This document shows, one piece after another, positions 232-16,288 of a stretch of 64,000 bases of DNA. The translations under genes and the position numbers were made by a program. Below the pieces are notes generated by a model. That model was not told where the DNA came from and ran no database searches. It worked only from the letters and a program-made list of their open reading frames with translations. Numbering within the stretch: the stretch's first letter is position 1; the number at the start of each line of letters is the position of its first letter. Source of the DNA: Erysipelotrichia bacterium (lineage in GTDB: Bacteria; Bacillota_I; Bacilli_A; Erysipelotrichales; Erysipelotrichaceae); assembly GCA_018333955.1 (NCBI GenBank), contig JAGXSD010000011.1, forward strand, positions 1-64,000, written 5' to 3'.

Positions 232-1404
232 TTATTGTGTCCGTTTTAAGGGATTATCTTCATGAAGACTTATCTGTTTTTTAAACCATGTTGAGATGAC
301 AAACATTAAAGTTGTTGCGGGTAAGGTTAGAATGAGTCCTAATGAACCAATGATTCCCATCATCACTTCAAATGCATAAAACTCAGCATTAAAGATAAAG
401 TGAGTGGGTTGACCATAAACCGCCATCAAGACTAACATGCTTAGTGATGCCCCAACATAGGCTAGAATAAGTGTATTGGTCATCGTTGCAATCATATCAG
501 CACTCATGGCAATAGCGGAAGCGACATAATCTTTGATAGTTTTTGTGGGAGACTTTAATTCATGAAGCGCACTTGCTAAGGACATACTCACATCCATAAT
601 GGCTCCGAGAGAACCCACAGTGATACTTGTGAAAAGAATTCCTCGCAAATCGATATCTAATCCTTGAATATTGAGAAGGAAGAATGATTGTTCATCAAGG
701 ATACCTGTCATTTTTAAAGTGTTTAAAAAGAATAAAGCTAATAAAGATGATACGGTGATGCCGATTAAAGATCCTAGCGTCGCATGCAATGTCTTACTTG
801 AGAATCCTCCAATAATTATGAATGATCCAATTAAGATATATAGACTCATGAAGAAAGCAGGAGTAATAATTGAACTATTGATGAGAATGGCTGGAATAAG
901 AAGTCTTAATATCACATGAATACTAAATCCTAATGCGAGTAAGGCCCGAATTCCTTTAAATCGACCTATGATGACCACCATCACCACAAATAGTGCCATC
1001 AGCCATAATAGTCCACCTTCGCGCTGATATGTGACCACACTAAAGAAAATCTCTCCTTCAATATCTAACATATTAATTAGAAGTTTATCTCCCACATTGA
1101 TGGGATAAATCTCTGTTTCAACATCATGGACTTGAACTTCAATCACAAGCATGTCATTTTTATATGGAGCAGAGGTCACCTCAACTTGCATACGAATATT
1201 AATCACTTCTCCCCCAAAACCATCATCCACCAAACTTTCTTCCATGACTTCAATGACAGTCACTTTAAGAAAATCATCATTCGTTAAAACATGATTGAGA
1301 TTAAGTTGTGATACTTTATCTTGGTAAAACTGATCGAGTGAAAATGAAATCACTCCTAGAATAAGACATGTGAGTATCCATAGTATGTTCCTAGTCTGTT
1401 TCAT
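232..1404 (-). CDS. YibE/F family multi-pass membrane protein
   Basis: This 390-residue protein has an N-terminal membrane anchor, an extracytoplasmic beta-rich segment (about residues 35-125), then about seven to eight membrane helices, which is the YibE/F family layout. The function of the family is not firmly established; a transport role has been proposed. I chose the ATG at 1404 because AAAGGAG sits just before it; an upstream ATG at 1419 is in frame but has a poorer site. The start lies inside the end of the acetyltransferase gene, so the two are translationally coupled. It converges on the transposase fragment. Confidence 0.8.
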   Translation of the reverse strand: MKQTRNILWILTCLILGVISFSLDQFYQDKVSQLNLNHVLTNDDFLKVTVIEVMEESLVDDGFGGEVINIRMQVEVTSAPYKNDMLVIEVQVHDVETEIYPINVGDKLLINMLDIEGEIFFSVVTYQREGGLLWLMALFVVMVVIIGRFKGIRALLALGFSIHVILRLLIPAILINSSIITPAFFMSLYILIGSFIIIGGFSSKTLHATLGSLIGITVSSLLALFFLNTLKMTGILDEQSFFLLNIQGLDIDLRGILFTSITVGSLGAIMDVSMSLASALHELKSPTKTIKDYVASAIAMSADMIATMTNTLILAYVGASLSMLVLMAVYGQPTHFIFNAEFYAFEVMMGIIGSLGLILTLPATTLMFVISTWFKKQISLHEDNPLKRTQ

Positions 1405-1906
1405 GACTACTCCTTTCATATCCTAACCTTAATGCATGATTCGCAACATAGACTTTCCCACACAGTTTAAACCCATGCTTTAGAATTAATCCTTGCATTA
1501 AAACATTGTGAGGATGAGTATCGATACGACATCCATTCATGTGATGTTCTTGACATAATTTTAATGCATAAGAAAGAAGCTTTGATGCGATTCCTTGATG
1601 AGGAAAATCAGGATGAACACACAAGCGGTGCACCACACCATAAGGCGAATTAAATGACCACTGTCCTTCTTCAATGACTTCATAATAAGGATCATCTTCA
1701 AATAAACAAGCCATCGTTCCTAAAACGAGATCATCATCCACTAAAACATAAGATCCATGTTTATTCATGTCTTCGTTTAAACTTGTTTCATTTGGATAGT
1801 GGTTTTGCCACTGATCGATGCCTTGGTGTTGTAAGAAAAGACTAGCCCTGTGATAAAGGGCTAATACTTGAGGAATATGGTGAGATTGAGTTTGAATGAT
1901 TTTCAT
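1391..1906 (-). CDS. GNAT family N-acetyltransferase
   Basis: This 171-residue protein has the GNAT fold signature. The motif A region VHRLCVHPDFPHQGIASKLL (about residues 91-110) matches the acetyl-CoA pyrophosphate loop (Q-x-x-G-I/x-A), and IDTHPHNVLMQGLILKHGF is the usual C-terminal motif of the family. It probably transfers an acetyl group from acetyl-CoA to an amine, but the substrate cannot be read from the sequence. It overlaps the start of the yibE/F gene by 14 bases, so the two probably form a small operon. Confidence 0.85.
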   Translation of the reverse strand: MKIIQTQSHHIPQVLALYHRASLFLQHQGIDQWQNHYPNETSLNEDMNKHGSYVLVDDDLVLGTMACLFEDDPYYEVIEEGQWSFNSPYGVVHRLCVHPDFPHQGIASKLLSYALKLCQEHHMNGCRIDTHPHNVLMQGLILKHGFKLCGKVYVANHALRLGYERSSHETD

Positions 1907-6146: not shown

Positions 6147-6399
6147 ATTGTTTCCATGTATAGAATTCTTGATCTTTATCAAAATCAACCTCTTGATTGA
6201 CATCGTCATAAATTTGAAAAAGGTGATCTTCATAAAGAGTAGTAAAATCATCCCAAGAGAGTTTACTATGCCATTGATCTTGAACACAAATCACAAGTTC
6301 ACCTTTTAAACGAATTAATGTGATGGGTTTCGCCACTGTCACTAACACCATCCCTTCTTGAAGGTAACTTAAAATTTGATGAATGGTGTATTGATTCAT
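6145..6399 (-). CDS. Hypothetical 84-residue protein
   Basis: This is a small acidic soluble protein with no signal peptide or membrane helix. Its predicted order is a short helix, a beta-rich centre (MVLVTVAKPITLIRLKGELVICV) and a tail rich in aspartate and tryptophan. I do not recognise a family. Its start overlaps the stop of the MATE exporter by one base and a terminator follows, so it is the second gene of a two-gene operon. The clean ribosomal coupling and lack of overlapping alternatives make it a likely real gene. Function unknown. Confidence 0.65.
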   Translation of the reverse strand: MNQYTIHQILSYLQEGMVLVTVAKPITLIRLKGELVICVQDQWHSKLSWDDFTTLYEDHLFQIYDDVNQEVDFDKDQEFYTWKQ

Positions 6400-7793
6400 T
6401 AACTCGCATCACCTAATGCATCAGGAATGGGTGATGACCGTTCTTTAAGTACATATGTATCAAGATGCTTCATGGCAAGAATAAAGAAGATCCCAGTGAG
6501 AATACTCGAAATCACATCCGCAAAAGGTGCCGCATAAAGTAATCCTTGTAAGCCAAAGTATTGAGGGAATATAAGCACTGCAGGAAGTAAAATAATGACT
6601 TGACGAGTTAAAGTAAGAAACATGGCAGTCTTAGCTCTTCCAATGGCTTGGAAGAAATTTGAAGCGATAATCTGGAATCCAACAAGTGGCAGTAATAGAA
6701 ACCAAGAGCGAATAGCCATGATCCCAAAGGTCATGAGAGCTTCCTCTCGGTTAAAGATTCCCACTAAAACACCTGGTACAAAACGTGTCATGACATAACC
6801 CACTGTTACAATGATTGTCGCATAGGTGATGGCGAGTTTTACAGTCTCTCTTACACGATCAAATTGCTTCGCACCAAAGTTATATGAAATGATGGGTTGA
6901 ATTCCTTGATTCAATCCAATAATAGGTAAAATCATGAATGTTTGAATCGAGTTTATTATTCCCATGCCTGAGACCGCAATATCTCCGCCATACAAATATA
7001 GAGTTCGATTAATGAATGCATTAAGGACACTTGCTGCAAGTTGTAAACTAAAGCCTGGTAATCCTAATGTGATGATGGTTAAGATGATGGCAGGGTGTGG
7101 TTTTATGTCTCGTGCTTTAAATTGTATATTCGACTTACCTTGAACAAAGTAAGATGCTACCCAAAGAGCAGAAACAGTTTGAGCAATGATGGTAGCATAA
7201 GCTGCACCCGCAATACCCATATCAAGCCCGAAGATAAAGATAGGATCAAGAATAATGTTGATGCCAGCACCGATTAGCATTGTCATCATCGCCATTTTAG
7301 GTCGACCATCCGCACGAATAAAGTTATTCATCGCTAAAGCAATCATTTGAAACGTGGTTCCATAAAATATGATGCCCATGTAGTCTTTAGCATAAGGAAG
7401 AATAAGTTCGCTTGCTCCAAAGATGAGTAAGATATCTTCTAGAAATAATAAGCCAATCCCAGAAATCAATAATCCAACCACAATAATGAGAAAGAATGAA
7501 GTCCCTAATGCTTCTTTCGCATCATTAACTTTGTTTTGGCCAAGACGAATTGAAAATAATGTTGCACCACCTATCCCAAATAACACCCCGACTGCTAGAA
7601 CAATCAGCATGATTGGAAAGGCAATGGTTAAGGCTGCTAAACCATTGGCTCCAAGGGCTGGAGCATTTCCAATATAGATTCGATCAACAATATTATAAAG
7701 GGCATTAATAATCATCCCGACCATGGCAGGAAGTGAAAAACGCCAAATAAGTGTACTAATTTTTTGATCTTTGAGTTGATGAATTTGATCCAT
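6399..7793 (-). CDS. MATE family multidrug/metabolite efflux transporter
   Basis: This 464-residue protein has about 12 membrane helices in two homologous halves, the layout of DinF/NorM-type exporters. The first half opens with LPAMVGMIINALYNIVDRIYIG, and the second half shows the matching IIGLNQGIQPIISYNFGA motif typical of the MepA-like subgroup. It would export cationic drugs or metabolites using a Na+ or H+ gradient. It leads a two-gene operon with a small unknown protein. The frame at 7712-7906 that overlaps its start is a shadow. Confidence 0.9.
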   Translation of the reverse strand: MDQIHQLKDQKISTLIWRFSLPAMVGMIINALYNIVDRIYIGNAPALGANGLAALTIAFPIMLIVLAVGVLFGIGGATLFSIRLGQNKVNDAKEALGTSFFLIIVVGLLISGIGLLFLEDILLIFGASELILPYAKDYMGIIFYGTTFQMIALAMNNFIRADGRPKMAMMTMLIGAGINIILDPIFIFGLDMGIAGAAYATIIAQTVSALWVASYFVQGKSNIQFKARDIKPHPAIILTIITLGLPGFSLQLAASVLNAFINRTLYLYGGDIAVSGMGIINSIQTFMILPIIGLNQGIQPIISYNFGAKQFDRVRETVKLAITYATIIVTVGYVMTRFVPGVLVGIFNREEALMTFGIMAIRSWFLLLPLVGFQIIASNFFQAIGRAKTAMFLTLTRQVIILLPAVLIFPQYFGLQGLLYAAPFADVISSILTGIFFILAMKHLDTYVLKERSSPIPDALGDAS

Positions 7794-7920: not shown

Positions 7921-7944
7921 GTGAAAAAAGGGGAGTTCCCCTTT
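7921..7944 (-). terminator. Terminator after the MarR gene
   Basis: On the minus strand AAAGGGG-AACT-CCCCTTT runs into a six-base T tract directly at the MarR stop codon. Confidence 0.8.
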
Positions 7945-8353
7945 AATCAAGTCCTATTTTTTTAAGTAGATGTTGAAGTAATAATTCTTCATGGTCAGTT
8001 AATCGATTTAAGCGAATTCTTTGCCGTGCAACATGTTTTTCATACACATCACTCATGAGTTCTTGACCTGAAGCTGTAAGTGAACACATTCTTTTTCGCT
8101 TATCATGAGTATCACTTATAATGGTGATATATCCTTTTTGAGCCAATTGATCAATGACATAACTGAGTGATGAGTTCGCGATGAGGACTTTACTTTGTAA
8201 AGATGCAACACTCATGGCTCCTTTGTGATACAAAGCCTCTAGAGCCATAAATGATGAAAGTGATAACCCTAATTCATTAACTTGCTGTTGAATGTCATTT
8301 GAAAGCGTATTGGTAGCTCTAAACAGAATTGTGATTGTTTTTAAATCATTCAT
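7943..8353 (-). CDS. MarR family transcriptional regulator, MhqR-like by context
   Basis: This 136-residue winged-helix repressor has the MarR core: VASLQSKVLIANSSLSYVIDQLAQKGYI is the recognition-helix region and ISDTHDKRKRMCSLTASG is the wing. ATG 8353 starts just inside the end of the dioxygenase gene (8-base overlap); the 14-residue longer reading is discarded. Ring-cleaving dioxygenase genes of the MhqA/MhqO type are controlled by MhqR in Bacillus. The divergence region upstream of the operon holds a 26-bp palindrome whose TCGAATTCGA core resembles the MhqR operator. I infer quinone or electrophile sensing and autoregulation. Confidence 0.85.
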   Translation of the reverse strand: MNDLKTITILFRATNTLSNDIQQQVNELGLSLSSFMALEALYHKGAMSVASLQSKVLIANSSLSYVIDQLAQKGYITIISDTHDKRKRMCSLTASGQELMSDVYEKHVARQRIRLNRLTDHEELLLQHLLKKIGLD

Positions 8354-9335
8354 AATACTCTTTCTCAAAGTGTTTATTACTGCGAGTAGTATCAAAATGT
8401 CTCACTTGACGCTCAATGAGTTCGCGTTGATGTCTAAAGCGTGGAGGAAGTGCTAGTGTTTCTCCTAAGATTTCCACATCTTCTTCATCATCAATAAAGC
8501 CAGGCCCTTCAGTCGCAAATTCAAATAGAATATTTGGATATAAACGAGTATACAGTGATTTGAAGTAGAATCGATCAACATACCCAGAATGTCCTGCTTT
8601 AAAACTATTTAAACGATCAATCCATGCTTCTAGATGATCTTTGTCTTCAATTCTAAAGGCAACATGATGAACAGCCCCAAAGCCTTGATACGCTTGGCGT
8701 AATAATGGTTGGAAATCAAGAATCACAGATGCTCCGTTGCCACCTTCTCCCATTTCAAAGAGGGTATATTGATCTTCTTTACTAACAAACCTCATCATCA
8801 TAACCTCTTCAAGAATACGTTTCATTCTCTCAACATCGCTGACTCTAAAGAAAATAGGTCCAAGTCCTGTAATGGCGAATTCATTAGGAACAGGACCTTT
8901 AAGCCATGGGGTTCCACTTCCGATCCCTTGATTGTGTTCGTCGGAAAATAATGCATAGTCTTGATCATCGAAGTCTGAGAAAAACAATACTTTCTTGCCA
9001 AACATGGTTTTTATTTCTTCATGCTTAACTTTGTAATGATTAAAGCGTTTGATCCAGTATTCTAAAGCAGCATCACTAGGAACTCTAAATCCTGTACGTG
9101 AGATTTCGTTGGTGCCTTTTACCCCTTTGTTCATTCCTGGAAAATCAAAGAATGTCATGTCTGTGCCAGCACTACCTTCATTGTCCGCAAAGAATAAGTG
9201 ATACGTATGGATATCATCTTGGTTAATGGTTTTCTTTACTAATCGCATGCCTAAAACGTAAGTGAAGAATTCATAATTTCTTTCTGCACTGCTTGTAATC
9301 GCAGTCACATGGTGTATGCCTAATAGTTGTTTCAT
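8346..9335 (-). CDS. Ring-cleaving dioxygenase, VOC/glyoxalase superfamily (MhqA/MhqO-like)
   Basis: This 329-residue protein has two vicinal-oxygen-chelate modules. The first begins LLGIHHVTAITSSAERNYEFF with the metal-binding histidine; the second has FGAVHHVAFRIEDKD. Near the end, LYPNILFEFATEGPGF supplies the metal-binding glutamate. Family members (MhqA, MhqE, MhqO, LinE-like) open hydroquinone or catechol rings or detoxify quinones using Fe2+. It is co-transcribed with the MarR gene, which supports a stress-induced quinone-detoxification role. Its ATG at 9335 follows AAGGAGAC. Confidence 0.88.
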   Translation of the reverse strand: MKQLLGIHHVTAITSSAERNYEFFTYVLGMRLVKKTINQDDIHTYHLFFADNEGSAGTDMTFFDFPGMNKGVKGTNEISRTGFRVPSDAALEYWIKRFNHYKVKHEEIKTMFGKKVLFFSDFDDQDYALFSDEHNQGIGSGTPWLKGPVPNEFAITGLGPIFFRVSDVERMKRILEEVMMMRFVSKEDQYTLFEMGEGGNGASVILDFQPLLRQAYQGFGAVHHVAFRIEDKDHLEAWIDRLNSFKAGHSGYVDRFYFKSLYTRLYPNILFEFATEGPGFIDDEEDVEILGETLALPPRFRHQRELIERQVRHFDTTRSNKHFEKEYYE

Positions 9336-9361
9336 AAGGTCTCCTTGTGGTTTATGTTCCT

Positions 9362-9387
9362 ATTTTATTTCGAATTCGAAATAAAAT
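9362..9387. promoter_or_regulatory. Perfect 26-bp palindrome, probable MarR/MhqR-type operator
   Basis: The sequence reads as two perfect 13-base arms, ATTTTATTTCGAA and its complement, with no spacer. It lies 27 bases upstream of the dioxygenase start and 60 bases upstream of the divergent TRAP gene. MarR proteins bind such dimeric inverted repeats; the TCGAATTCGA core is like the MhqR box. Confidence 0.75.
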
Positions 9388-9447: not shown

Positions 9448-11352
9448 GTGAAAAATGAGACAAATATGGTTAAATATACAACACTAGAAAATTGGTCTAA
9501 AGGAAGAAAAAGAAAACTAAGTGATTCAGCTCGAAAAATCAAAATTTTTTCAACGTGGATCATTTCTTTAGTCGTAATCTTAGCAATCTTCATCTTCCCA
9601 GACTCCTTAATATATCGTCCAGCAGTATTTAGTTTGTATTTTGCATTAGTATTTCTTATGTATGCTCCAACCCAATCAAGTCATGATAAGCCATCGTGGG
9701 TTGATATCGTGTTGATTATCTTAACATTAGGTGTTGGAGTGTATTATATCCTTAATGGGTCAGAATTAATGGCTCGTCGTCCTTACATTCATCCTCTAAA
9801 AATCGAACATCAGTTTGTAGCATTACTTGCGACACTTATTCTCAATGAAGGAGTACGACGTGTAGTAGGTAGTTGGATTGTTGGTATAAATCTAGTATTT
9901 GTGTTGTATGCACTGTTTGGACATTTGATTCCAGGTCGATTTGGAGTTAAAGGATTGAATTTGGAACTAATGTTAGATGGTTTATACTTCACGCGCACGG
10001 GGGTGTGGGGTGTAACAGTGGCAGTTGCTTTTAGTTCACTCATTATGATCATCCTTTTTTCAAGCTTTGTCCTTGCGAGTGGACTTGATCAAGTGATTCT
10101 AAAAATGTTTCAGAAATGGTCATTTAAAGGAAGTGGTGGATCTGGGATGCTTGCAGTCATCGCTTCAGCATTCTTTGGAATGATATCTGGAGGGGGTACA
10201 TCCAATGTGACAACTACTGGGACACTCACCATTCCACTCATGAAAAAACAAGGTTATTCACCGATTATGGCTGCTGCGATTGAAAGCAGTGCCTCAATGG
10301 CTTCGACATTCACACCTCCCATTATGGGTTCTGTAGCCTTCCTCATGGCTGAACTGCTTGGGTTACCCTATGGGCGTGTGATGGTTATGGCCACCATTCC
10401 AGCCTTGTTATATTATGGATCTTTACTTGTCCTAGTGAAATCATATGCAATAACTCACCACATTGACCAATTAGAGAAAACCTCATCAATTGGATTTCCA
10501 CTTAAATCATTATGGTTATTTCTTCCGATGATTTACTTCATCATTGCTGCGACCATGCAACAAAGTATCACTCGCTCGGCTTTAGAAGCAATAGTTTTAA
10601 CCATTGGACTTCATTTTATTCTTAATCTAAAAGTTGATTTAAAATTTATAGTATCCACCATTGAGAAAGGAATTGATCGGACTATTCCCATTGTGATTTC
10701 CATGGCAGGAGCGGGATTATTTATTGGAATTATAAACCTTACAGGGTTTGCTACAAAACTTAGTGTATTCTTTAGAACCATTCAAGCTTGGCCTATAGCG
10801 ATTATCATTGTGATGGTGGCACTCATGGTTATATTCTTAGGGCTTGCATTAAATACCATCTCAACTTATTTAATTGCCGTGGTATTATTTGCCCCAACAT
10901 TAGTTAGATTTGGGTTTGATTTGAATGCAGTGCATATGTTTATTGTAATTTTTGCAGCTTTAGGCAGTATTACACCACCTGTGGCTTTGACTTCACTTAC
11001 AGCCGCAACCATTGCCCAAGCACCTATTGATGCGGTCGGATGGAAAGCTATGACATTAAGTATTCCTGCTTATGTGATTGGAGTCTTACTCTTGTTTCAG
11101 CCACAACTGATGTCGCCAAGTTTATCATTAGATTTCGTCCTACTAGCACTTAATAGCCTAACACTGTCCGCATTGTGGATTGTGCTTATTGTTTTAGGTA
11201 AACCTAGTTTGAAGGTGATATACTTTCAACTTGCAATCTTAGTTTTAATTGAATGTTTATGGTTTGGATTATCATTTTGGTGGGGTAGTATCATATCAGC
11301 CTTTGCATGGCTAATTATTCCACAATGGATAAGAAAGAAAGTGACTCTATGA
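9448..11352 (+). CDS. TRAP transporter fused permease (DctQM-type), TAXI class
   Basis: This 634-residue membrane protein has about 15-18 helices. The N-terminal part corresponds to the small (DctQ) subunit. The rest is the large DctM channel: FGMISGGGTSNVTTTGTLTIPLMKK and the SSASMASTFTPPIMGSVAF stretch are the typical signatures, repeated in the second half as ALGSITPPVALTSL. It imports an organic anion using the sodium gradient together with the TAXI receptor encoded next. The start (GTG 9448, or ATG 9466) is uncertain because neither has a strong ribosome binding site. It overlaps the receptor gene by ATGA. Confidence 0.9.
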   Translation: MKNETNMVKYTTLENWSKGRKRKLSDSARKIKIFSTWIISLVVILAIFIFPDSLIYRPAVFSLYFALVFLMYAPTQSSHDKPSWVDIVLIILTLGVGVYYILNGSELMARRPYIHPLKIEHQFVALLATLILNEGVRRVVGSWIVGINLVFVLYALFGHLIPGRFGVKGLNLELMLDGLYFTRTGVWGVTVAVAFSSLIMIILFSSFVLASGLDQVILKMFQKWSFKGSGGSGMLAVIASAFFGMISGGGTSNVTTTGTLTIPLMKKQGYSPIMAAAIESSASMASTFTPPIMGSVAFLMAELLGLPYGRVMVMATIPALLYYGSLLVLVKSYAITHHIDQLEKTSSIGFPLKSLWLFLPMIYFIIAATMQQSITRSALEAIVLTIGLHFILNLKVDLKFIVSTIEKGIDRTIPIVISMAGAGLFIGIINLTGFATKLSVFFRTIQAWPIAIIIVMVALMVIFLGLALNTISTYLIAVVLFAPTLVRFGFDLNAVHMFIVIFAALGSITPPVALTSLTAATIAQAPIDAVGWKAMTLSIPAYVIGVLLLFQPQLMSPSLSLDFVLLALNSLTLSALWIVLIVLGKPSLKVIYFQLAILVLIECLWFGLSFWWGSIISAFAWLIIPQWIRKKVTL

Positions 11353-12317
11353 AAAAATTCGTCTTACTAAGTTTAGCATTACTTCTAATTGCGTGTGCCC
11401 CTGCACCAGTTAATGATGTCGAACCTATTGATTTCACATTAGTTGAAGGTAGTGGAGGGACAGCACTCAGTGTTGTGGCTGGGGCGATTGCGGGAGCAGT
11501 AGAAACTTCGTTCCCAGGATCAACTGTCACAACATTATTAGGACGTCCTGATGACAATCCTTTACGAGTAAGTAGTAAGCAAGTTGATTTTGGCTTATCA
11601 TCAAATGCCGCCATTAAAATGAATTTTGATGGTGGTTTGGGTGTGAAAAATGATAATTTGCGTGTGATTGCGACATTTAATGCTTCAACACTACAGTTTG
11701 CGATTCATAAGCGTTTTAACATTACAAGCTTTGAACAACTTATTGCGCAAAAGCCAAAAATCAGAATTCGCTTAACGGGTCCAGAGACACAATTAGGGGT
11801 TCTTTTTGATCAAATGTTAGCTTATTATGGTGAAACACGTGAAAGTATGACTGCAGCAGGAGTAGAGTTTGTTAGTGTTGAACAAGCAGCCATTTCTGAA
11901 ATGGTGAATAGTGGTGCACTCGATGCATACTTTACAACATCTTCACTTCCCGCTAAAGTTGTAAGTGAAACCTTTGCTTCTGGAAACCTTGTGTTCATGA
12001 CTTATCCGACTGAATTACTCAATGCCATGAATACGCTACATGGACACAGCATTGCGCCAATTAAAAAAGAAGCTTACAGTTTTTTAACTGAAGATGTATT
12101 ATCTTTTGCGACATACACGATGTTATTTACCCATAAAGATATTGACGATGAGATTGTAAGAAAAGTTGTCAAAGCGCTTGTTGATAACATTGATTTAGTC
12201 AGTTCAAGCATGGCTGACCTTAATGGTATTACACCAGAATATTACTTGTTAGGTGTTAATATTCCACTCCATCCAGCGGCAGAGGCCTATTATAAAGAAA
12301 TTGGGATTCTTGATTAA
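11349..12317 (+). CDS. TAXI family TRAP transporter solute-binding lipoprotein
   Basis: This 322-residue protein has a signal peptide with lipobox (LLLIACAP), then the TAXI family pattern: LVEGSGGTALSVVAGAIAGAV near the start, FGLSSNAAIKM, and the C-terminal helix with LHPAAEAYYKEIG that is a hallmark of TAXI receptors. It captures the substrate outside the membrane and passes it to the fused permease. The start is ATG 11349 overlapping the permease stop; a reading from 11307 lies inside the permease gene and hides the signal peptide. Substrate unknown; the family includes glutamate and 2-oxoglutarate binders. Confidence 0.9.
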   Translation: MKKFVLLSLALLLIACAPAPVNDVEPIDFTLVEGSGGTALSVVAGAIAGAVETSFPGSTVTTLLGRPDDNPLRVSSKQVDFGLSSNAAIKMNFDGGLGVKNDNLRVIATFNASTLQFAIHKRFNITSFEQLIAQKPKIRIRLTGPETQLGVLFDQMLAYYGETRESMTAAGVEFVSVEQAAISEMVNSGALDAYFTTSSLPAKVVSETFASGNLVFMTYPTELLNAMNTLHGHSIAPIKKEAYSFLTEDVLSFATYTMLFTHKDIDDEIVRKVVKALVDNIDLVSSSMADLNGITPEYYLLGVNIPLHPAAEAYYKEIGILD

Positions 12318-14836
12318 TGAAACGTGATTTTTTCCTACAATCGCTTCACCATTTAGCATTAACTCGTCCAAATGATGTAGCTTTTAACTATAAAGGTACA
12401 TCGACTTGGACCTATGGTGAGTTTTATCAAAGTGCCATTGCTTTTGATCAAGCCATCAAACAACTTAACATTTCAGAAAGTGATCGAATTGGGATTGTGT
12501 TTTCATCGCGTCCAAACTATGTACTCATGATGAGTGCACTTTATGCGAATGTGATTTCAATTGTGCTTAAAGGAACTCTTGATGAAACATCTTTAATTAC
12601 ACAAGCTCTTGAAAGAGGTGTACATGCAATCATTACAGATCGTGTTACACCATCTTTAATTGATGCCTGCACGATTAATCACCTTGGACTTATCGAAATG
12701 TTGAATGAACCAAGTCCTTCTTGTTTAATGCTTGTTGATTACAAACGATCTTGTGTAGAAGAAGATGATGATCCTATCATATTTATTAACACCAGTTCTG
12801 GGACCACAGGGAAAGCAAAAACATTCCCTAGACGATTAAGTGAAGTGCTCGCGATCATTAATCAAGAAGTTAAATCATTTAATCTCAATGGCACCACAAG
12901 ATTACTCACAGCCTATGTCGATAATAGTTCAAATATCAACAATATGCTCAAAGCCATTTATAGTGGAGCAAGTATAGTATCAAGTGATGGGGTTGATCCA
13001 AGGCATATCTATGATTTGTGTCATCGTCTTCCAATTCATCACATGCGTATTGCTCCTGCTACGATGATAAGTATATTTGAATATGCAAAAAGCCGTAATA
13101 TTGATTTCAAATCGTGTACTTTAAAAGAAGTTATTGTCACGGGGGCATCCATTCAACCTTCTTTTGTCTCAATGTTTAATGAGTTGTTTAACGCACGACT
13201 TATTCATACTTATGGAAGTACTGAAACATCAAATGTGGCTTCTAATGTGAATGCTCCTTTAGGATATAAAGAAGGTAGTGTAGGGATAGTGGAACATCAT
13301 GAGATCAAAATCATTGATGGTGAAGTGTGTGTAAAAGCACCCATGGTGTTTAAAGGATATGAAAATACGGATAATTCATCATTTTTCATTGATGGATTCT
13401 TTAGAACTGGAGATCATGGATCACTTGATTCTCAAGGGTACTTAACTATTCATGGTCGATTTAAAGAGCTTATCAATCGCGGTGGTGAGAAAGTTTCACC
13501 AATCAAAATAGAGAATCTTATTGATCAACTCCATTGGTTTAAGGAGTGTGCTGTTTTTTCAATCCTTAATGATCAAGGTTTTGAAGATATCGTATGTGTT
13601 GTCGTGAAAAAACATCGATCCTACAACATCAAAGAATTACGAGAAGCTTTAATGCAATCTTTGCCCTCCTATCATTGTCCTAATTATTTGATAGAGGTGA
13701 ATGATATTGAAAAAACGGTTGATGGAAAAATATCACGAAAATTACTTTCAGAACAATATCAATCACGTTTAAGTCATCATGAAAAATCATTTGATGATAT
13801 GGAAGCTATTCTTAAATCGTGTTTAAATCAAAAAGAAATTAATCTGCAAGATTCATTTGTGATGTGGGGTGGGGATTCTATTAAATATGCAACGTTAATG
13901 TCTCTTATTCAACATCATCTTCATAAGCATGTTGCGCTCAATGAACTTATGGCATGTAAGAATATGCAAGCGATGATTGAACTTGTCAATCAATTACCTC
14001 TTGATCAACGTCGATATACTTTAACTTGGTTAAGAAAGACTCAATCCTCACACCCCACGCTAATTTTTATCCATCCAAAAAGTGGAGATGTTGTGACCTA
14101 TCGATATGTCATTCAAGCGATGGATGAACATCATAGTATCGCAGGGCTTACATTTGATCCACGATTGTTTGACTCAACACCCCCATATCACGTCAATGAG
14201 ATTATTCACGTGTACGTGAATGCTATCCTTGAAGAAGGACTTAAAGATATAGTGCTGTGTGGTTTAAGTGTTGGAGGAAAAATTGCTTTACTTCTTGCGA
14301 AAGCATGTGAAGCTTATGATATCACAGTCCATCATGTGATGATGTTTGACACAACAACACTTAAAGAAACCTATCATCGTAAGTGGGATCTTGTGCGTAG
14401 TCTTAGACTCATGAAATTTGACATTCAAACTCGTCGCTTTGGTTCACTTCCTAACTATGTCATGACCAAGATTAAGAAACTAGTACTTAATCGAGTCTTT
14501 AGAAGTAAGACCCTATATAATGTCAAAGAAAGTGTTGAGCAAAAACTAATTAATCATGATTCTAACTTTACACCACTTGAGATAGAACATCTTGTGACAC
14601 AAACATTTAATGTTCCAATCCCAGATTATGTTGATGTTTCGCTCACATATTTATGGGCTAGTAAAGAGCGAGATGATCATCATGCGAAAGCATTACTTCA
14701 CAGAGTAAAATCACTGAACATCATTAAAACCCCATTATTCCATAGTGATTTTGTGGATATTGATGCCGCATTAACTGCTTCAATCTTAAATGATTGTTTA
14801 GCTACAATCCATCAAAGAAAACATAAAAAGAAATGA
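12317..14836 (+). CDS. NRPS-like adenylation-carrier-thioesterase protein
   Basis: This 839-residue enzyme has three domains. An ANL adenylation domain (1-480) shows SSGTTGKAKT (A3), YGSTETSNVA (A5), RTGDHG (A7), GRFKELINRGGEKVSP (A8) and VDGKISRKLL with the late lysine (A10). A carrier domain (about 490-560) has the phosphopantetheine serine in GGDSIK (Ser521). A thioesterase (about 575-835) has GLSVGG (Ser651). It should activate a carboxylic acid with ATP, load it on its own carrier, and release it. No condensation domain is present, so it would make a simple ester, amide or dimer. It begins in the last base of the TRAP receptor stop codon, tying its substrate or product to that transporter. 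Confidence 0.88.
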   Translation: MKRDFFLQSLHHLALTRPNDVAFNYKGTSTWTYGEFYQSAIAFDQAIKQLNISESDRIGIVFSSRPNYVLMMSALYANVISIVLKGTLDETSLITQALERGVHAIITDRVTPSLIDACTINHLGLIEMLNEPSPSCLMLVDYKRSCVEEDDDPIIFINTSSGTTGKAKTFPRRLSEVLAIINQEVKSFNLNGTTRLLTAYVDNSSNINNMLKAIYSGASIVSSDGVDPRHIYDLCHRLPIHHMRIAPATMISIFEYAKSRNIDFKSCTLKEVIVTGASIQPSFVSMFNELFNARLIHTYGSTETSNVASNVNAPLGYKEGSVGIVEHHEIKIIDGEVCVKAPMVFKGYENTDNSSFFIDGFFRTGDHGSLDSQGYLTIHGRFKELINRGGEKVSPIKIENLIDQLHWFKECAVFSILNDQGFEDIVCVVVKKHRSYNIKELREALMQSLPSYHCPNYLIEVNDIEKTVDGKISRKLLSEQYQSRLSHHEKSFDDMEAILKSCLNQKEINLQDSFVMWGGDSIKYATLMSLIQHHLHKHVALNELMACKNMQAMIELVNQLPLDQRRYTLTWLRKTQSSHPTLIFIHPKSGDVVTYRYVIQAMDEHHSIAGLTFDPRLFDSTPPYHVNEIIHVYVNAILEEGLKDIVLCGLSVGGKIALLLAKACEAYDITVHHVMMFDTTTLKETYHRKWDLVRSLRLMKFDIQTRRFGSLPNYVMTKIKKLVLNRVFRSKTLYNVKESVEQKLINHDSNFTPLEIEHLVTQTFNVPIPDYVDVSLTYLWASKERDDHHAKALLHRVKSLNIIKTPLFHSDFVDIDAALTASILNDCLATIHQRKHKKK

Positions 14837-14853
14837 CAAATGTCATTTCTTTT
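14826..14853. terminator. Bidirectional terminator between the NRPS-like gene and murE
   Basis: AAAAGAAATGACA and its complement TGTCATTTCTTTT flank a two-base centre (practically a 7-10 bp stem), with A and T tracts on both sides, between convergent stop codons. Confidence 0.8.
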
Positions 14854-16288
14854 CATGATGTTTGATTTTCATCAGTGGATGAGTGGCAATAGCTTCATAA
14901 GCTTGTTCTAGATCATTAAAAGGAATACGTTGATCTTTAACAACCTGATAGTTTTCTTCGCCTTTGCCAAGGATCAATACACAATCATCATGGCTTGCCA
15001 TATGAATGGCTCGTTCAATTGCTTTTGCTCGATCAATGATGACTTCAATATTATGGCGCGTGACATCCCGCATCATCATCTTCACAATATCCATTGGATC
15101 TTCAAAGCGTGGATCTTCACTTGTTAAAACGACAACATCGGCTTCATCACTCAGTATTTTCCCCATTGCAGGTCGTTTATCATGATCTCGACCTCCTGCA
15201 CTGGCTGCTACCACAATTAATCGTTTCATCTTTAAGGCTTTAATATACTTGAATAAACTCATATATCCATTAGGTGTATGAGCATAATCCACAAGCACTT
15301 TAAAGGGTTGACCTTTTTCAATGCGTTGTAAACGTCCTGAAACATGAAGGTTATGGAGTTTTGAAAAGACACAGCGATAATCAACACCATAGGCATAAAT
15401 CGCCGCAAAGGTAGCTGCTAGATTATAAGCGTTAAATTCACCAAGTAAGTTAGTGGTTAAATCATAAGTCTTATGATTGTGACGGAACTTAAATGCAGTA
15501 TGATCCCCGTGAACTTGGATGTCACTAATTCTAAAGTCACTTGATTCATGTTGACCATAGGTAAGAACCTTTGCCTTCGTCACATTGATGAATTGTTGTG
15601 CATAAGGATCATCGATGTTTATGATGGCTGTTCCGGTAGATTTTGTTTGTTTAAAGAGAATTGCCTTCGCATTAAAGTAGTTTTCCATCGTTTTATGGGT
15701 ATTTAAATGCTCTGGAGTAAGATTTGAAAATATCGCAATATCAAATTCTAATCCTTCAGTACGCCCATAATATAGTCCTTCAGAACCAGCTTCCATAATC
15801 ACAACACTATCACCTTTAGATTGAAAAGTATGAAGTAAGCGATAGAGATGTTCGATGGCAGGAGTAGTATTCTTAGTGGCTTCAGTATAATTAGGACTAA
15901 AAGCTCCATTCGTCCCAATGACTGCTGCTGAAGTTACATGATTTAAAAACGCCCCAAGAATTGTAGAGATGGTGGTTTTGCCATCCGTACCCGTCACTCC
16001 AATAAGCTTAATGTGATCATGCGGATAAGCTTGTTTGACTAAAGAGACTAATGCATCTTGAGTATTTTCAACACGATATGTAGGCAATGATGTAGTAACA
16101 TCCTTGGAAATAATGGCACCAGCTGCATTTGCTAATGCAGCCTGTGGCAAGTATTCATGACGATCCACACTTATGCCTTGAATACAGACAAATAAATCAT
16201 GAGGTTGAATCTCATTTGAATTTGTCTTCACGTCCACAAATTCAATATTTGGAGCATCAGGGAAGTAATCAGAGAGACGTCGTGTCAT
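14843..16288 (-). CDS. murE: UDP-N-acetylmuramyl-tripeptide synthetase MurE (or MurE-like)
   Basis: This 481-residue Mur ligase has the three-domain order: N-terminal UDP-binding part, central ATPase with GVTGTDGKTT (about residues 97-106) and the HLNTHKT region with carbamylated-lysine site downstream, and a C-terminal domain with HVSGRLQRI and DYAHTPNGY. It adds the third amino acid to UDP-MurNAc-L-Ala-D-Glu. The DAP-specific motif DNPR reads EDPR here (in TSEDPRFEDP), so the amino acid added is uncertain. It is separated from any division/cell-wall cluster and overlaps the arginase gene by 20 bases, which suggests a special supply link or a second MurE. Confidence 0.85.
   Translation of the reverse strand: MTRRLSDYFPDAPNIEFVDVKTNSNEIQPHDLFVCIQGISVDRHEYLPQAALANAAGAIISKDVTTSLPTYRVENTQDALVSLVKQAYPHDHIKLIGVTGTDGKTTISTILGAFLNHVTSAAVIGTNGAFSPNYTEATKNTTPAIEHLYRLLHTFQSKGDSVVIMEAGSEGLYYGRTEGLEFDIAIFSNLTPEHLNTHKTMENYFNAKAILFKQTKSTGTAIINIDDPYAQQFINVTKAKVLTYGQHESSDFRISDIQVHGDHTAFKFRHNHKTYDLTTNLLGEFNAYNLAATFAAIYAYGVDYRCVFSKLHNLHVSGRLQRIEKGQPFKVLVDYAHTPNGYMSLFKYIKALKMKRLIVVAASAGGRDHDKRPAMGKILSDEADVVVLTSEDPRFEDPMDIVKMMMRDVTRHNIEVIIDRAKAIERAIHMASHDDCVLILGKGEENYQVVKDQRIPFNDLEQAYEAIATHPLMKIKHHEKK

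Follow-up and report, generated by a model that had tools for sequence, protein, structure and literature searches.

A TAXI-TRAP transporter and a stand-alone adenylation-carrier-thioesterase enzyme encoded together in an apparent operon of an Erysipelotrichia bacterium

We analyzed a 64,000-nucleotide stretch of an Erysipelotrichia bacterium genome (contig JAGXSD010000011.1 of assembly GCA_018333955.1, positions 1 to 64,000; hereafter "the window"), in which positions 9448-14836 of the plus strand form a compact three-gene unit. Its products are a fused TRAP permease, a solute-binding protein (SBP) of the TAXI family that is a predicted lipoprotein, and an 839-aa protein with adenylation (A), carrier or thiolation (T) and thioesterase (TE) domains, here termed the A-T-TE protein (Table 1). 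Direct reading of the sequence shows that the permease and SBP genes overlap by 4 nt (ATGA, 11349-11352), and that the SBP and A-T-TE genes overlap by 1 nt (TAATG, 12315-12319). The initial annotation had three overlapping genes at these coordinates and on this strand, as we find; it also described the transporter as "fused" with the enzyme in one operon, a word that does not fit genes that overlap yet remain separate. On its two sides the unit meets a divergent glyoxalase-like gene (8346-9335, minus strand) and a convergent murE-like gene (14843-16288, minus strand). A terminator-like hairpin lies between the unit and murE, identified in a consensus scan in which the number of such sites was close to the shuffled expectation. 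From this layout, the three genes are best described as one apparent operon. The composition of the operon matches that of the rest of the window and of other contigs of the genome, and therefore neither recent transfer nor contamination is indicated.

Table 1. Features of the three-gene unit and associated elements. Positions are those of the window unless a locus is named.
Feature	Position	Strand	Basis or remark
Fused TRAP permease (small + large subunit), 634 aa	9448..11352	+	GTG start or in-frame ATG 9466
TAXI-family solute-binding lipoprotein, 322 aa	11349..12317	+	TIGR02122, PF16868, lipobox LIAC
A-T-TE protein, 839 aa	12317..14836	+	PF00501, PF13193, PF00550; TE by profile and fold
Adenylation domain, residues 1-486	12317..13774	+	motifs SGTTGKAK, TGD, GRFKELINRGGEKVSP, DGKISR (K471)
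Carrier (thiolation) domain	13775..14002	+	PF00550 3e-7; attachment serine S521 in GGDS
Thioesterase domain	14003..14836	+	triad S651, D678, H809
Bidirectional terminator-like hairpin	14822-14857	both	between operon and convergent murE; consensus scan
Perfect 18-bp palindrome TATTTCGAATTCGAAATA	9366..9383	.	in promoter-like site of divergent glyoxalase gene
Divergent Sfp-like phosphopantetheinyl transferase	L014 (G000:C47) 1348-1833	-	Sfp motifs

The first two genes encode a TAXI-TRAP transporter, as the initial annotation proposed: adjoining with their 4-nt overlap, they both exceed the cut-offs of the family models, with the permease scoring 376.1 bits against TIGR02123 (cut-off 320.65) and the SBP 96.3 bits against TIGR02122 (cut-off 84.35). 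The permease also matches DctM (PF06808, 2.5e-57), and the SBP matches NMT1_3 (PF16868, 3e-29). We place the SBP start at ATG 11349, while the longest open frame would begin at 11307; the resulting N-terminus, MKKFVLLSLALLLIAC, is of the lipoprotein type. The ligands of TAXI proteins investigated to date are carboxylates, namely glutamate and its relatives (PMC11574862, PMC12344293). In VcGluP, mutation of Y45 to alanine (Y45A) reduces affinity 213-fold and Q93A reduces it 990-fold. While the window SBP and permease resemble VcGluPQM and TtGluBP in passing the TAXI-TRAP models, the window SBP differs from them at both sites: it is non-aromatic at the position of Y45, unlike 17/17 other TAXI proteins compared, and carries Ser at the position of Q93. 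Because both residues are replaced, glutamate import, the default reading for a TAXI protein, was rejected, and glutamate is predicted to be an unlikely ligand. Among the 273 genomes of the family, no closer TAXI relative of the window SBP was found above ~26% identity over partial length, and a tree of TAXI proteins gave it no placement. Two plasmid-borne TAXI relatives lie near Rieske and aldehyde-dehydrogenase genes, one of them also near pca genes, but we did not adopt a link to aromatic catabolism because the grouping with these relatives had only 57/59 support and was a long-branch join. Elsewhere in the same family as the window, a TAXI SBP gene overlaps a gltS-like symporter gene (L070, G107:C55, 1210-3389; seen by eye), an arrangement resembling one described in Bordetella pertussis.

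The A-T-TE architecture predicted for the third gene product was likewise borne out, with the A and T domains identified by Pfam matches (AMP-binding, 2e-33; AMP-binding_C, 5e-7; PP-binding, 3e-7) and the TE domain by structure-profile search, a Ser/Asp/His triad and the fold of an AlphaFold model. No Pfam thioesterase match in the enzyme family exceeds its cut-off, the best being 0.0041 in a relative from genome G003. A C-terminal profile of the four full-length family members (described below), compared with solved structures, matched AB3403 (1.7e-6) and Pks13 (1.5e-5), with the fengycin and EntF TEs matching more weakly. The AlphaFold model (mean predicted local distance difference test score, pLDDT, of 72.7 and predicted template modeling score of 0.48 on 13 sequences; pLDDT of 52 on 4 sequences) best matches the terminal modules of EntF, SrfA-C, AB3403 and ObiF1. 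The window enzyme shares with these nonribosomal peptide synthetase (NRPS) modules the order of A, T and TE folds and the triad; unlike them, it has no condensation domain and carries the A8 motif of acyl/aryl ligases. The carrier serine S521 is invariant in 4/4 full-length members, as are the Asp and His of the TE triad, and the TE nucleophile is Ser/Ser/Ser/Cys. The cysteine (in GHCFGG) belongs to the member from genome G498 (L052, G498:C65, 847-3330). The motif set is complete in all three domains, and the A-T-TE protein is a putative active enzyme.

The A domain taken alone has oxalyl-CoA synthetase and aryl-acid ligases as its top matches, by sequence profile and by fold. Oxalyl-CoA synthetase is the nearest solved A domain by profile (8.8e-65) and, together with DhbE/EntE/PchD/CahJ, forms the closest solved group at only 18-22% identity; unlike these proteins, the window A domain is fused to a carrier and a thioesterase. 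Its A8 motif, GRFKELINRGGEKVSP, has the acyl/aryl ligase form (GR-KELINRGG-K-SP) and not the NRPS form. The A4 region (AYVDNSSN) can be aligned in three ways, which make code position 1 either D202, N203 or S204, and for this reason the Stachelhaus code is not readable; the counterpart in the paralogs is NM (Asn), and the G498 member differs again. The initial annotation had proposed a prediction of the adenylation pocket as a check, and our reading of the pocket by sequence alignment gave no confident substrate and no clear fit to any pocket code. Atromentin and polyporic acid synthetases, RalA and EchA share the stand-alone A-T-TE order without a condensation domain, at ~840-960 aa. Unlike them, the window enzyme lacks the Val that marks alpha-keto-acid activation at code position 1 in all three alternative alignments, and its A domain is nearest to oxalyl/aryl-acid ligases; importer pairing, as seen for the window enzyme, was not found for these synthetases in the literature searched.

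Homolog searches across 273 family, 395 class, 392 phylum and 396 G498-centred genomes, in overlapping sets (~1400 genome slots), show that this A-T-TE enzyme family is rare. Four of the recovered members are full-length: the gene in the window, a paralog (G000:C23) encoded by the same genome, an ortholog of this paralog in genome G003, and a gene in G498, a genome of another family. The G003 ortholog is 52.8% identical to the paralog, and both lie in the same glycine-cleavage neighborhood; among the three independent loci, identity is 22-27%. Beyond these genomes, an IMG/VR scan returned only an oxalyl-CoA-synthetase-like ligase and one further fragment, a plasmid tblastn search returned NRPS modules at 19-24% identity, and a single named-genome scan returned only an ordinary AMP ligase (Sporosarcina).

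Directly upstream of every full-length member (4/4), and in the same orientation, lies a gene for an SBP-dependent importer. Outside the window, all three A-T-TE genes are partnered with components of PhnCDE-type ABC importers, a class that differs from the window's TRAP transporter. For the paralog and its ortholog in G003, the upstream gene codes for a PhnD-type SBP, and the two reading frames overlap by 1-4 nt; the G003 SBP is intact (PF12974, 4e-21), and the copy in the window's genome is interrupted by a contig end. In G498, the A-T-TE gene lies 10 nt behind a gene for PhnE, which scores 225 bits against TIGR01097, over the cut-off. BLASTP between the TAXI and PhnD-type SBPs gave no match, and the two belong to unrelated transporter classes. 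The G003 genome also carries a complete PhnDCEE cassette (L066), whose SBP shares 34% identity with the PhnD-type SBP upstream of the A-T-TE gene (L011, G003:C14, 7794-8807). The latter has no permease of its own and may share that of the cassette. By comparison, a recognised importer lies upstream of 0/10 control AMP-ligase genes of relatives, a set that is small and partly non-independent; the co-directional genes upstream of the controls encode CoA-transferases, an electron-transfer flavoprotein, an esterase, VanW, a DNA-glycosylase-like protein and two unassigned proteins. Searches of the open literature gave no account of adenylation or NRPS genes being paired with transporters of the TRAP or phosphonate type.

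Because the importer pairing has survived enzyme divergence to 22-27% identity, uptake and activation are probably linked. We also considered that the enzyme gene came to lie behind the importers by hitch-hiking, with no substrate in common. The small number of independent loci and the lack of a biochemical link would suit such a chance neighborhood, but the pairing at 3/3 independent loci versus 0/10 controls, the overlapping genes, and the terminator-like hairpin that immediately follows the enzyme all argue against it, and we judge it rather unlikely.

We propose that the operon is an uptake-and-activation cassette, a reading to which we give nearly, but not quite, an even chance. The TAXI SBP would capture a small anionic solute, probably a carboxylate, and the fused permease would carry the captured solute into the cell. 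The A-T-TE protein would then adenylate the carboxylate and tether it, within the same protein, to the phosphopantetheine arm of the carrier domain, already converted to the holo form by the Sfp-like transferase of the genome. Finally, the thioesterase would release the unit, either by coupling two such units or by transfer to a nucleophile, which would yield an ester or an amide. The initial annotation had suggested that the imported acid may be what the enzyme activates: the coupling of uptake and activation gains support from the 4/4 to 0/10 comparison, and it is plausible that the substrate is the imported acid, as this scheme would have it. More broadly, and more tentatively, the four genes could represent a small family of A-T-TE enzymes, seemingly new to the literature, that are coupled to importers and turn an incoming acid into a conjugate; within this family the ABC or TRAP importer would be exchanged while the enzyme is kept.

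Activation of the carrier appears feasible in the window's genome. Pfam ACPS gave no match over cut-off in the genus (six genomes), but a weak match on contig G000:C47 (18.3 bits, cut-off 25) is a 161-aa open reading frame that carries the Sfp motifs GVDIE and WCMKEAYFK. Because of these motifs, a phosphopantetheinyl transferase is very likely present; an acyl carrier protein gene is present in the genome as well. We therefore discarded the idea that the carrier stays inactive for want of a transferase, since the Pfam model had missed the Sfp-like frame.

Several points weigh against an uptake-and-activation cassette. The independent loci number only three; at the PhnD locus no permease gene adjoins, and the G498 contig begins shortly upstream of PhnE. 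None of the SBPs paired with the enzyme family has an established ligand, and the window SBP lacks both key glutamate-binding residues of the VcGluP/TtGluBP type. A shared substrate class is not obvious, as TRAP and PhnD importers usually carry unlike solutes. In the A domain, none of three signatures (the amino-acid FDxS, the acyl-CoA-ligase FHxxG and the alpha-keto-acid Val) is clearly present, and position 235, an Asp in amino-acid-activating NRPS A domains, is ambiguous in the alignment.

Pairing with an importer at every locus, despite the change in importer type, would also be expected if the product, and not a common nutrient, were recognised. In such a retrieval cycle, the A-T-TE protein would make a secreted molecule (a metallophore, signal or similar) and the paired importer would reclaim the product or its metal complex. 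The resemblance of the A domain to the salicylate and dihydroxybenzoate ligases of siderophore pathways fits this idea, but the three-gene unit contains no exporter, metal-related or tailoring gene, and the nearby MATE gene (6399-7793) lies on the opposite strand; we consider retrieval unlikely, though a serious competitor. Phn-type SBPs bind molecules that need no carboxylate, and TE domains are capable of transfer besides hydrolysis. Both properties would suit a scheme in which the imported molecule is an amine or alcohol acceptor that receives, through the thioesterase, an acyl group produced by cellular metabolism. This scheme sits poorly with the carboxylate ligands of the TAXI proteins studied to date (PMC11574862, PMC12344293), and we regard it as improbable.

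Upstream of the operon, positions 7943-9383 hold a gene for a MarR-family regulator and the glyoxalase/ring-cleaving-dioxygenase-like gene, divergent from the TRAP operon. The palindrome TATTTCGAATTCGAAATA lies 65 nt before the TRAP start and is close to the Staphylococcus aureus MhqR operator, TATCTCGAA-aTCGAaATA (PMC6798810), suggesting a putative mhq-type quinone-response unit. A quinone-sensor-type putative operator between the two divergent units, together with the identical A-T-TE order, raises the possibility of a bacterial quinone-type synthetase, which would couple two aromatic alpha-keto acids in the manner of RalA or the fungal atromentin synthetases, with the MhqR-like regulator, the dioxygenase-like protein and the MATE protein serving as protection. 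However, the enzyme has D202, N203 or S204 in place of Val at code position 1, and an exact search for the palindrome core gave no match at the other loci compared, among them those of the paralogs, making this reading very improbable. At the window edge, positions 1-222 contain the end of a transposase-like (integrase core) frame, noted by eye.

Every part of the proposed uptake-and-activation cassette comes from a known family, and the new point is the recurrent pairing with exchangeable importers. The presence of either PhnD/PhnE-type ABC components or a TAXI-TRAP transporter beside one enzyme family suggests that function was kept while the uptake machinery changed. Should one operon indeed encode both the import of an acid and its activation on a carrier, the SBP ligand would reveal what an orphan NRPS-like enzyme uses as substrate, and vice versa. 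If true, this would provide a rare handle both on orphan transporters, as very few TAXI ligands are known, and on orphan A-T-TE enzymes.

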